From contig JAUWOP010000010.1 in the NCBI GenBank assembly GCA_030612045.1, forward strand, positions 1-33,360: a stretch of DNA of 33,360 bases. Direction: 5' to 3'. Under the pieces are notes generated by a model, which did not search any database, had not been told where the DNA came from, and saw nothing but the letters and a program-made list of their open reading frames with translations. Position numbers and translations under genes: made by a program. This document shows positions 18,742 to 21,931 of the stretch, piece by piece. Position 1 is the stretch's first letter. Each line of letters starts with the position of its first letter. This DNA comes from Chloroflexota bacterium (GTDB lineage Bacteria > Chloroflexota > Dehalococcoidia > UBA2247 > JAUWOP01).

Positions 18742-18768
18742 AAATCCCCCTGAGGCCCCCTTTCTAAA
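18742..18768. repeat. Left half of the host palindrome split by the element, including TTTCTAAA
   Basis: AATCCCCCTGAGGCCCCC followed by TTTCTAAA at 18761-18768. Joined to 21890-21908 (GGGGGATTTAGGGGGATT) it forms an interrupted palindrome with arms of about 18 bp. The sequence 18690-18740 just before it carries GTCATTGCGAGCC, a dispersed repeat also seen near 22484-22496. Confidence 0.85.
18761..18768. repeat. Left 8-bp target site duplication
   Basis: TTTCTAAA directly before the left inverted repeat; the exact copy follows the right end at 21882-21889. Eight base pairs is the duplication length typical of the IS1595 family. Confidence 0.9.
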
Positions 18769-18793
18769 GGGAATTATATACTTGACTAGCCAT
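18769..18793 (+). repeat. Left terminal inverted repeat of the IS1595-type element
   Basis: It starts GGGAATTATATAC and ends GACTAGCCAT. It pairs with 21857-21881 at 23 of 25 positions and contains the -35 hexamer TTGACT of the element's promoter. Confidence 0.92.
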
Positions 18794-18810
18794 GTAATTT
18801 GTGCTATAGT
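18782..18810 (+). promoter_or_regulatory. Promoter of the transposase-RM-vsr operon
   Basis: TTGACT (18782-18787), 17 bp, TATAGT (18805-18810). The -35 lies in the inverted repeat, so it travels with the element. The transposase ATG is 24 bp after the -10 box and has GAGAGGG before it. Confidence 0.75.
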
Positions 18811-18833
18811 ATAGCTAGATTGAGAGGGTAGCT

Positions 18834-19766
18834 ATGAACAGCACAAAAGTAATCGAAAAGCCAGAAACCATGAGTCTCTACGAGTTCATGCAACGGTTCC
18901 CCAATGAAGAGTCCGCTGTCGAATTCTTTGAAAGCCGCCGCTGGAACGGTAAACCTTATTGTCCTCATTGCGGCTCTATTGAGGTTACGAGCATCCCAAC
19001 TGGTAAACCAATGCCTTACAGGTGCAAAATTTGCCGAAAACATTTCAGCGTCCGCACTGTAACCGTGCTTGCTGAAAGCAAGTTACCTCTCCATAAGTGG
19101 CTTATGGCTATCTATATGTTCCACACGGCTAGGAAGGGCATATCCAGCGTTCAGTTATCAAAGGAATTAGGAATCACTCAGAAAACGGCTTGGTTCCTCA
19201 ATCATCGCATACGCGAAGCCATGATGTATTGCTGCGGGTTATTTAGCGGAGAAGTGGAAGTCGATGAGTCCTACATCGGCGGTAAAGAGAAAAATCGCCA
19301 TGCTTCAAAGCGGAAGGCAATTGAACGTGGAACTGCTGGCAAACAAGCCATATTCGGATTGCATCAGCGAGACGGTAGGACTCGTGCGTTCCCCATTGAC
19401 GGAACCGATAGGGTGAAACTCCAATCGGCAATCGTGGAGAACATCAAGTGCGGAGCCACAGTATACACTGATTCTCATAGCGGCTACGATGGTCTTAAAA
19501 GCTATAATCATTCTAGAGTAGCGCATAGCGTCGGCGAGCATGTTCGGGATAAGGTACATACTAACGGTGTCGAATCTTTCTGGTCACTACTCAAACGCGG
19601 GTATATTGGTATTTATAACTACATGAGCACCGCGCATCTTCACCGCTACGTGAGTGAGTTTTCATGCCGCCACACCTCCAGACATTCCGATATGATAATT
19701 TGCATTCAGGGAACCATAGACGGTATGATTGGGCGACGGTTATCTTATAAGGAGTTAATGTCATGA
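18834..19766 (+). CDS. IS1595-family (ISXO2-like) transposase
   Basis: A 310-residue DDE-type transposase. An N-terminal zinc ribbon (C43/C46 in YCPHCGS and C64/C67 in RCKICRKHF) precedes a helical part (KWLMAIYMFHTARKGISSVQL) that ends in an HTH-like ELGITQKTAWFLNHRIR. The catalytic core has VDESYIGG (D144), VYTDSHSGY (D213) and HTNGVESFWSLLKRG (N244/E247 with K254), the IS1595 pattern. The order and the 8-bp duplication agree with this family. Its TGA overlaps the ATG of the methyltransferase (ATGA at 19763-19766), so translation is probably coupled. Confidence 0.95.
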   Translation: MNSTKVIEKPETMSLYEFMQRFPNEESAVEFFESRRWNGKPYCPHCGSIEVTSIPTGKPMPYRCKICRKHFSVRTVTVLAESKLPLHKWLMAIYMFHTARKGISSVQLSKELGITQKTAWFLNHRIREAMMYCCGLFSGEVEVDESYIGGKEKNRHASKRKAIERGTAGKQAIFGLHQRDGRTRAFPIDGTDRVKLQSAIVENIKCGATVYTDSHSGYDGLKSYNHSRVAHSVGEHVRDKVHTNGVESFWSLLKRGYIGIYNYMSTAHLHRYVSEFSCRHTSRHSDMIICIQGTIDGMIGRRLSYKELMS

Positions 19767-20797
19767 CGTTGTACGGTAAATTCGACGCAATGATAGATGC
19801 TGTATTATCTCCTCCACCCAAGCGAGGGGAAAGTGACCGCCTTACCTGTATCGATTTGTTTTGCGGGATCGGTGGGTTCCATATCGCCGCTAGTAATCTA
19901 GGGCTTGACGTGATATTCGCGTCTGATATTGACGACGACGCTTGCGCCGCCTATAATCATAATTTCGGCATATATCCAATGGGTGACATAGTATCTATTC
20001 AGGCTAGCGACATACCCAATCACGATATTCTTCTTGCTGGTTTCCCTTGTCAGCCATTCTCAATAATCGGCAGTAAGCGTGGTACTGCCGACTCTCGCGG
20101 AACGTTATTTTTGGAAATCATTCGTATAGCTAGAGTCAAGAGGCCGCTCGGAATTATTATTGAGAATGTCAAGCAGCTTGCTACCACACAGCATGGAGCG
20201 GTTCTCCGACGGATTCTTGATGATTTAGAGAGCATCGGTTATACGGTTGATTGGCGCATCCTGAATGCTTTAGATTTCGGATTGCCGCAAAAACGAGAGC
20301 GCGTTATAATCGTGGCTACGCTTTCAAAATTCGATAAATTTCCTTGGCCCACTGAGAAAATACCCATGATTCCGCTTGCGGACATATTAGAAAAAAATCC
20401 AGACCAAAGGCATTTCGTCTCGGAGAGGATTCGGGCTAAGCGCCGCGCAACCCATACTGCGAAGGTTTCTCCATCGATTTGGCATGAGAATAAGGCGGGG
20501 CATCTATCCAGTTATCCGTGGTCATGCGCTCTAAGGGCTGGGGCATCATATAATTACCTACTTGTTGACGGTGAGCGGCGACTGACTCCTCGTGAGATGC
20601 TAAGGCTACAAGGTTTTCCTGACAGCTTTGAGATAGTCTCTAATGACTCGCAAGCTCGGAAGCAGACTGGGAATGCTGTACCTGTTCCGCTTGTGGAAGC
20701 TGCTATAAAGGGGGTGATTAATGTCATCGGACGATACGAGATTGCGGGGCGGAGCCAGGCGGCGCAACGAGCCTTATCCGCTCGGGCAGTTTTCTGA
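19763..20797 (+). CDS. DNA (cytosine-5-)-methyltransferase
   Basis: Modification enzyme of the mobile cassette; transfers methyl from SAM to cytosine C5. Length is 344 residues. Motif I is DLFCGIGG (31-38), motif IV FPCQPFS with the catalytic C96, motif VI ENV (134-136), motif VIII QKRER (176-180) and motifs IX/X PREMLRLQGFP and KQTGNAVPVP. The stretch between VIII and IX, where specificity is set, is short (about 100 residues), as in single-specificity enzymes. A good ribosome binding site AAGGAG (19750-19755) lies 8 bp before the ATG inside the transposase end. Target sequence cannot be told from this. Confidence 0.95.
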   Translation: MTLYGKFDAMIDAVLSPPPKRGESDRLTCIDLFCGIGGFHIAASNLGLDVIFASDIDDDACAAYNHNFGIYPMGDIVSIQASDIPNHDILLAGFPCQPFSIIGSKRGTADSRGTLFLEIIRIARVKRPLGIIIENVKQLATTQHGAVLRRILDDLESIGYTVDWRILNALDFGLPQKRERVIIVATLSKFDKFPWPTEKIPMIPLADILEKNPDQRHFVSERIRAKRRATHTAKVSPSIWHENKAGHLSSYPWSCALRAGASYNYLLVDGERRLTPREMLRLQGFPDSFEIVSNDSQARKQTGNAVPVPLVEAAIKGVINVIGRYEIAGRSQAAQRALSARAVF

Positions 20798-21467
20798 TAA
20801 TCTTCTATACGACATCGCAAAACAGATAGTTCACAGGCTCGCTATCGGTCACAGCGATATCACCGGCGATGACTTTGGGACGATATTTGCTACTGCCATA
20901 CACGGAATTCACCGGGGACGCCCCCTCGGTGTTGCTGATGTGGAACTTAACGGGTGTGCGTGGTCTATCAAGACCGTAAAAGCGGAACGTCCGTTTGAGA
21001 TTCCTATTGTTCGGCTCATATCGGGACGAAACTCACCGGATTACTCTCTGGGTATATCAGACCCTCGCGCTAATCCTGAAAACACTGGGCGTGCCGTACT
21101 CTCAGTGTGGAATGCCCGTGTCAATGAGGCTATGAACCAATATGACGATTTGCGCATAGTTGTCATGGTGCGGAATATGGAAACTCGCGAGTTTCTAATA
21201 TTTGAGGAGGAATCCCAGCGGTTTACCCTTACCGCGTATAGTTGGTCATTTAATAATCGCGGCAACTTGGAGGGTCACAATCGGACAAACGGGGTACATG
21301 AGTTTACATGGCAACCGCACGGTAGCCAGTTTACGATATTACGCCATGTTCCCGCGTCGGCTAGGCGGTTCAAAATCAATCCAAACGTACCAATGGTGCA
21401 ACCTGATACCATTCTGGCAGCGATAAGGTTTAGAGTTGAATGGATTACGGTTTATGGACAAGATTGA
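20721..21467 (+). CDS. Putative type II restriction endonuclease of the mobile cassette
   Basis: A 248-residue protein between methyltransferase and vsr, the place of the cognate nuclease. I do not recognise its family by motif. A possible PD-(D/E)xK-like core is VADVELNGCAWSIKTV (D73, E75, K84), and a second acidic group is GDDFGTIF (50-57). The start at 20721 is supported by AAGGGGGTGATTA just before it, though this places 77 bp inside the methyltransferase end in another frame. The product is not membrane-bound and has many polar residues. The nuclease assignment rests on position plus the weak motif; a different DNA-acting protein is possible. Confidence 0.6.
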   Translation: MSSDDTRLRGGARRRNEPYPLGQFSDNLLYDIAKQIVHRLAIGHSDITGDDFGTIFATAIHGIHRGRPLGVADVELNGCAWSIKTVKAERPFEIPIVRLISGRNSPDYSLGISDPRANPENTGRAVLSVWNARVNEAMNQYDDLRIVVMVRNMETREFLIFEEESQRFTLTAYSWSFNNRGNLEGHNRTNGVHEFTWQPHGSQFTILRHVPASARRFKINPNVPMVQPDTILAAIRFRVEWITVYGQD

Positions 21468-21864
21468 CAAAGCTACACGTAGCCGTGTCATGGCGAGCGT
21501 CCGCTCAAAAAACACCAAACCGGAAATGCTCGTTCGTTCGACAGCGCATAAACTAGGATACTGCTATCGACTTCATCGAAAGAATCTCCCCGGAAAGCCT
21601 GACATGGTATTTCCGTCGCGCCGAATCGCCTTATTCGTTCACGGATGCTTCTGGCACGGGCATGATTGTTCGCATGGCCGACGACTCCCAGTAACAAATG
21701 CCGATTACTGGAGGGAGAAAATCAGGCGTAATATGGAGCGTGACGCTAGGGTTCAAGCGGAACTGATAGACCTTGGGTGGAAACCAGTAATAGTATGGGA
21801 GTGTCAGATTAAGGACACCGAATTTCCCCAAAGCCTTGCAAAGGCAATAAACGGATATGGCTAG
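21454..21864 (+). CDS. vsr: Very short patch repair endonuclease Vsr
   Basis: Nicks next to T:G mismatches formed by deamination of 5-methylcytosine, thus repairing damage caused by the methyltransferase. A 136-residue protein from ATG 21454 (MDKIDKATRSRVMASVRSKN). The family marks are KNTKPEMLVR, GYCYRLHRKNLPGKPDMVFP with catalytic Asp, and FVHGCFWHGHDCSHG with zinc and catalytic His/Cys, then WREKIRRNMERD and GWKPVIVWEC. The alternative TTG at 21436 adds six residues. It overlaps the preceding gene by 14 bp; its stop TAG lies in the right inverted repeat. Confidence 0.95.
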   Translation: MDKIDKATRSRVMASVRSKNTKPEMLVRSTAHKLGYCYRLHRKNLPGKPDMVFPSRRIALFVHGCFWHGHDCSHGRRLPVTNADYWREKIRRNMERDARVQAELIDLGWKPVIVWECQIKDTEFPQSLAKAINGYG

Positions 21865-21881
21865 TCAAGTATATAGTCCCC
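21857..21881 (-). repeat. Right terminal inverted repeat of the IS1595-type element
   Basis: ATGGCTAGTCAAGTATATAG plus TCCCC; reverse complement of the left end with 2 mismatches. It includes the vsr stop codon (21862-21864). Confidence 0.92.
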
Positions 21882-21889
21882 TTTCTAAA
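21882..21889. repeat. Right 8-bp target site duplication
   Basis: TTTCTAAA, identical to 18761-18768. GGGGGATTTAGGGGGATT follows (21890-21907), the right arm of the host palindrome. Confidence 0.9.
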
Positions 21890-21931
21890 GGGGGATTTAG
21901 GGGGATTCTTCCTTGCTATGCTCCTCCTAAA

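Follow-up and report, generated by a model that had tools for sequence, protein, structure and literature searches.

A putative restriction-modification pair and a Vsr gene carried between the ends of an IS1595-type element in a Chloroflexota genome

Insertion sequences (IS) that bear passenger genes and restriction-modification (RM) systems that move are both known. Among the former, the transporter IS (tIS) are defined by passenger genes uninvolved in transposition (a definition quoted in PMC11891212). The closest described systems are tISCpe8 and MTnSag1, which, like the element examined here, combine an IS1595-type DDE transposase, 25-bp ends and 8-bp duplications with passengers held in one end pair; they differ in being described as mobilizable elements, tISCpe8 carries lincomycin resistance, and the excerpt of PMC5704250 that presents them mentions no RM cargo. 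A tIS from a different family, IS1380, likewise carries a methyltransferase that is dispensable for transposition, without mention of an endonuclease partner (PMC11891212). A large survey found site-specific methyltransferase genes to be frequent neighbours of IS1, and the paper that defined IS1595, cited in PMC5704250, presents it in its title as a relative of IS1.

Among the mobile RM systems, PaeR7I comes nearest, since its RM genes and IS travel together and restriction favours the cells in which the joint move succeeded; this RM-dependent joint migration with IS copies was shown in the laboratory (PMC3031569). Further IS-linked or composite cases (Rochepeau 1997, PluTI, Furuta 2010) are cited in PMC3031569. 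In PaeR7I and the composite RM transposons, however, separate IS copies stand on either side of the RM genes, or a plasmid is joined at the IS, whereas our element has transposase and RM genes as one operon within a single end pair. Defence genes are also cargo of Tn7-like transposons, but these use another transposition system and have a large and variable cargo, in contrast to a 3-kb single operon (PMC8649781).

It has long been asked whether RM systems act as selfish elements that provide for their own movement, and a unit of about 3 kb that joins mobility and RM is small enough to be tested whole in the laboratory; nature supplies copies with and without Vsr, and four lineages of transposase that bear this RM. 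The open-access literature, ISfinder and key reviews aside, yielded no description of an IS1595 element that contains a complete RM system, so its novelty is provisional.

Ends, target site and operon of the element

The window, that is, the whole stretch of 33,360 nucleotides of a Chloroflexota contig that was analysed, contains at positions 18769-21881 an IS1595-type element of 3113 bp (about 3.1 kb), with the following features.

18743..18768, no strand: left half of the interrupted target, a palindromic interspersed repeat (30 places related to the left flank; 36 core copies; uninterrupted relatives)
18761..18768, no strand: left-hand copy of the duplicated 8-bp target, TTTCTAAA, identical to 21882-21889
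18769..18793, + strand: left terminal inverted repeat, GGGAATTATATACTTGACTAGCCAT, 25 bp, 23 of 25 matching the right end
18782..18787, + strand: predicted -35 box TTGACT, within the left end, 17-nt spacer to the -10 box
18805..18810, + strand: -10 box TATAGT of the predicted promoter
18834..19766, + strand: intact IS1595-family transposase, 310 aa (PF12762, 3.3e-36; NF033547, 7.9e-54)
19763..20797, + strand: C5 cytosine methyltransferase, 344 aa (PF00145, 1.5e-82), PCQ and ENV motifs present
20721..21467, + strand: putative type II restriction endonuclease, 248 aa, 77-nt overlap with the methyltransferase gene (from family linkage, alignments and a model)
21454..21864, + strand: Vsr mismatch endonuclease, 136 aa (TIGR00632, 5.4e-48), 14-nt overlap with the preceding gene
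21857..21881, - strand: right terminal inverted repeat, near-complement of the left end (23 of 25)
21882..21889, no strand: right copy of the target duplication, TTTCTAAA, identical to 18761-18768
21882..21907, no strand: right half of the interrupted palindromic repeat (36 core copies; uninterrupted relatives)

The 25-bp ends with 23 matching positions and the exact 8-bp duplication had already been read in the initial annotation, and direct sequence comparison bears them out. No inverted repeat in the region is longer than this end pair, which owes part of its 51-nt length to the palindromic target, and the form of the left end is also found in L015, L017, L136 and L247. The transposase has a DDE domain whose acidic triad (D144, D213 and E247) is invariant among seven relatives, so that domain, terminal repeats and duplication all conform to the IS1595 family; the passengers, uninvolved in transposition and enclosed in one end pair, make the element a tIS. 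The two flanking IS copies of a composite transposon are lacking: a piecewise search of its fragmented assembly gave no second copy of the element and a single IS1595 transposase. The element may still be mobile at present.

Once its two flanks are joined, the insertion site falls in the middle of a palindromic repeat, whose core has 36 copies in the element's own genome versus none for the reversed control pattern. This abundant interspersed repeat lies around CCCCTTTTCTAAAGGGGGATTTAGGGGGATT and occupies 36 places in the source genome (G000). An empty site matching the joined palindrome had been predicted for relatives of the host; no orthologous empty site was found there, no close relative being available (the best match outside the own genome has 69% identity), and what stands is that other copies of the repeat in the own genome, used in place of the orthologous locus, are uninterrupted across the junction in L127 and L109 (125 bases at 86%), a further copy (L102) resembling both flanks with 36 additional bases at the junction. 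Among 56 duplications gathered by hand from the collected end-bounded elements, TTTNNAAA recurs as the 8-bp target in 7, against 0.2 expected from base composition, and a palindromic target fits such a target preference.

The four genes between the ends all lie on the + strand and all overlap, the methyltransferase start overlapping the transposase stop (ATGA). Such a coupled start recurs in related elements with different cargoes: in 24 out of 38, the first passenger begins with an overlap of exactly 4 or 8 nt with the end of the transposase gene; this count covers first passengers of at least 200 aa, includes some near-copies among the 24, comes from a script that took the start nearest to a 4-nt overlap and is thereby biased toward the result, and was made without a shuffled control. 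The promoter placing recurs as well, since a -35 box inside the left end with a 17-nt spacer is the best promoter-like site in 40 of 78 related elements, across different cargoes; the p values of single elements, obtained from shuffles, range from below 0.005 to about 0.6, so the strength of the prediction lies in the repeated placing. With its -35 box lying in the conserved end, this promoter would probably be repressed by a transposase bound to that end.

These overlaps agree with the earlier reading of transposase, methyltransferase, putative nuclease and Vsr as one operon within one end pair, and from the sequence we have high confidence that the genes form one coupled operon and move as a unit. 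The left-end promoter would start a single transcript from which the transposase would be read first, the methyltransferase, endonuclease and Vsr following through their overlapping starts and stops; as the methyltransferase precedes the nuclease, the protective enzyme would be made before the one that cuts. It seems likely to us, taking the whole locus together, that this is a cargo-bearing IS1595-family transposon which moves as one 3.1-kb piece and bears a type II RM pair and Vsr in one operon, and the RM-dependent migration of PaeR7I with IS copies counts in favour of this explanation.

The encoded pair and the Vsr protein

The C5-methyltransferase that had been proposed is confirmed by its PF00145 match, and its best solved match is M.HhaI; with its M.HhaI-like core it fits the DNA methyltransferase of a type II RM system. 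The idea of deriving a recognition site from this match was rejected, as the alignment is poor in the target-recognition part. A shared recognition site is expected for the methyltransferase and the 248-aa protein.

The 248-aa protein belongs to no family in Pfam, NCBIfam or PADLOC and has no solved relative by sequence. Phosphoglycerate mutase matches given by NCBIfam for one or two members of its family were set aside as weak and unexplained. Invariant in this family are D73, K84, R98, E162 and the stretch FTWQ..G.QFT, with S82 nearly so, the acid of the classic D/ExK motif being replaced by Ser (S82-x-K84). The AlphaFold model is a confident one (pLDDT 92.1, pTM 0.86), but its best solved match, 3ndh, a DNA-bound restriction endonuclease, is weak (E 0.078, TM 0.31-0.36), with EcoRV chains among the next matches; we take the protein for a putative divergent PD-(D/E)XK nuclease.

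Its relatives were read in the best 80 of 290 matches from one profile scan of genome contigs and in 14 viral loci; matches to the nuclease numbered none in plasmids and one in phage records. In nearly all loci read, the same kind of C5 methyltransferase adjoins the 248-aa relative (L003, with a different methyltransferase-like gene, is the exception), and Vsr lies nearby in about 24. In one close IS-borne pair (L019 and L020), transposase, methyltransferase and nuclease are each 85% identical and dN/dS is 0.066, alike for transposase and nuclease, at a high dS (about 1.5), which points to strong purifying selection on the nuclease. The 248-aa protein is very probably the endonuclease partner and would cut DNA, and it is very likely, from gene linkage and conservation, that it functions with the methyltransferase as a type II RM pair. 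The restriction enzyme of the initial annotation is supported by the family-wide linkage to the methyltransferase and by the purifying selection, the fold search agreeing weakly.

A different role was weighed, in which the methyltransferase serves the element itself, for example by adjusting its transposition or by marking its DNA so that host restriction spares it, and in which the 248-aa protein would be no nuclease. In L265, L268 and L252, all related elements, the methyltransferase is accompanied by no recognised nuclease, and the IS1380-family report of a methyltransferase passenger (PMC11891212) goes in the same direction; the 248-aa family, however, keeps company with the methyltransferase in many phyla where no IS is involved, and purifying selection on it is strong in the one IS-borne pair, so we regard this role as unlikely.

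The Vsr protein, most likely starting at the ATG at 21454, matches the E. coli Vsr structure 1cw0 (2.5e-29) and keeps the PD and HGCFWH motifs; its proposed identity is therefore secure. It would repair the T:G mismatches left by deaminated 5-methylcytosine, and a benefit to the element is plausible, weakened by the absence of Vsr from the other elements with this RM pair, among which the window copy alone has it. An IS1595 element in L160 (4923-8431) carries a different C5 methyltransferase, a 288-aa protein and a Vsr 57% identical to that of the window. Free-standing operons in L011, L013, L014 and L016 have a C5 methyltransferase, an endonuclease and Vsr in the same order, their methyltransferases and nucleases being about 57-64% identical to those of the window, but no transposase and no such ends were found there.

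Recurrence of the pair and its exchange between transposase lineages

The RM pair lies between IS1595 ends with a duplication matching at 8 of 8 positions in L015 (Caldilineaceae, CATTTTTT), L017 (Proteobacteria, TTTTTTTT), L019 (Verrucomicrobia, ATAATTTG) and L098, a viral contig with an additional KilA-N gene (GGATAGGA). The duplication matches at 7 of 8 positions in L005, another viral contig; in L149 both ends are present but no duplication is clear, and the contig of L020 stops at the right repeat. L008, truncated by its contig end, and L006, which is decayed, keep the right end, only part of the transposase frame is left in L060, and L027 fills its 3,016-bp contig.

Transposase and RM pair are, as read from these sequences, a unit that recurs in phages and in several phyla of bacteria, rather than the product of one accident, and the claim that they are packaged and mobile as one unit finds support in the same genes, the same kind of ends and separate duplications in unrelated genomes, and also in the uninterrupted copies of the target repeat elsewhere in the own genome. 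Of the four-gene set that was to be looked for between the same ends, the methyltransferase-nuclease pair recurs with the transposase and Vsr does not. It could be supposed that an IS1595 element came by chance to lie beside an RM operon and that the second end arose or was misread, RM operons of the same family being common without a transposase; such a one-off is extremely improbable, given that the ends match and the duplication is exact in this copy and that four other genomes or contigs show the arrangement with exact duplications of their own. RM genes without transposase or ends in relatives had been named beforehand as an observation that would speak against the element, and they do occur (for example in L009-L014, L016 and L018); this indicates that the RM cassette also lives free, and the element reading stands.

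Two of these copies call for a remark. In L017 (1879-4755), the methyltransferase frame seems split into 87-aa and 233-aa parts, by decay or sequencing error. The decayed relative in L060 (3895-5750), with RM genes 76-80% identical and the transposase fragment, sits on an Armatimonadota contig whose binning is uncertain, since this contig and L008 belong to one E14 assembly series.

In close pairs the three genes diverge in step: like those of L019 and L020, the copies of the window and L015 have similar identities for the transposase (60%), the methyltransferase (62%) and the nuclease (60%). The transposases of L005 and L019 are only 49% identical while their cargo is 62-64% identical, which suggests that cargo has been exchanged among lineages of transposases. 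On the transposase tree this RM falls on four lineages, so it was captured or exchanged repeatedly, and in the nuclease tree the IS-borne copies are not grouped and free-standing operons stand between them; both trees are unrooted and come from short searches, and the direction of movement is not readable from them. A single capture by one IS lineage was rejected, since a tree that keeps nine clustered IS-borne nucleases together fails (AU p 5e-5, on a short-search tree and with the group of nine chosen after the tree was seen) and the transposase tree calls for four lineages.

Other cargo and the upkeep of the pair

Other RM genes were met in elements of a viral-contig sample chosen by transposase likeness to the RM-bearing ones. 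An N4/N6 methyltransferase and an MvaI/BcnI-type nuclease lie between IS1595 ends with an 8/8 duplication in L183 (492-3011), and L181 (4929-7459) has an RM system in the same setting, also with an 8/8 duplication and with a second protein related to that of L183; both are on a different transposase lineage. Further cargo includes type I-like methyltransferase and specificity subunits (L136, L147), a C5 methyltransferase with HNH (L168) and a methyltransferase-HNH fusion (L175).

A second sample was drawn from 400 genomes of the phylum, searched with the window transposase, and its 60 best places gave 33 elements with acceptable ends. L273 and L303 were left out, their end pairs being put down to chance. 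Nine of these 33 end-bounded Chloroflexota elements carry a DNA methyltransferase, six of them with PF01555, whereas about 0.14 PF01555 matches would be expected in their 59 kb of passenger DNA, given 205 matches in about 86 Mb (rounded sizes) of 28 of the sampled genomes; split matches inflate this background slightly and open reading frames were incompletely scanned, and both errors work against the enrichment. The flanks gave no methyltransferase in 88 kb, with queries that had themselves been found inside elements, and we therefore rely on the PF01555 density. This enrichment suggests that RM genes may often be missed as IS cargo, since annotation stops at the transposase. We would give an even chance to a broader proposal from these sequences, that IS1595 elements are a general and repeatedly used vehicle for RM, addiction and defence genes, with a fixed loading place made of the left-end promoter and a cargo start overlapping the transposase stop, and that RM systems are loaded there and exchanged between lineages.

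As for the element in the window, its RM pair is likely kept both by making the element costly to lose and by defending the cell or the carrier phage. The initial annotation proposed that each move brings post-segregational killing; on addiction as the reason for the element's success, our opinion is evenly balanced. The cargo might instead be mainly a defence module that spreads by protecting its host or carrier phage from phages and plasmids, with no part for addiction: copies in viral contigs adjoin phage genes (L005, L006), related elements hold several kinds of RM, and defence cargo also travels in Tn7-like transposons (PMC8649781). This is a tentative alternative, which we hold to be possible rather than probable; some related elements have cargo other than RM, and defence and addiction are inseparable by sequence, so that both may hold.

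This non-RM cargo includes KilA-N, a P63C-type protein with a 141-aa protein in L139 (4896-7478) and L140 (4939-7536), that of L139 matching PemK/MazF toxins, and, as the larger cargo of the IS1595 element in L202, a viral contig, a PAPS-reductase domain. The larger cargo of three other viral contigs (L211, L172 and L153) looks similar to that of L202, by eye only.
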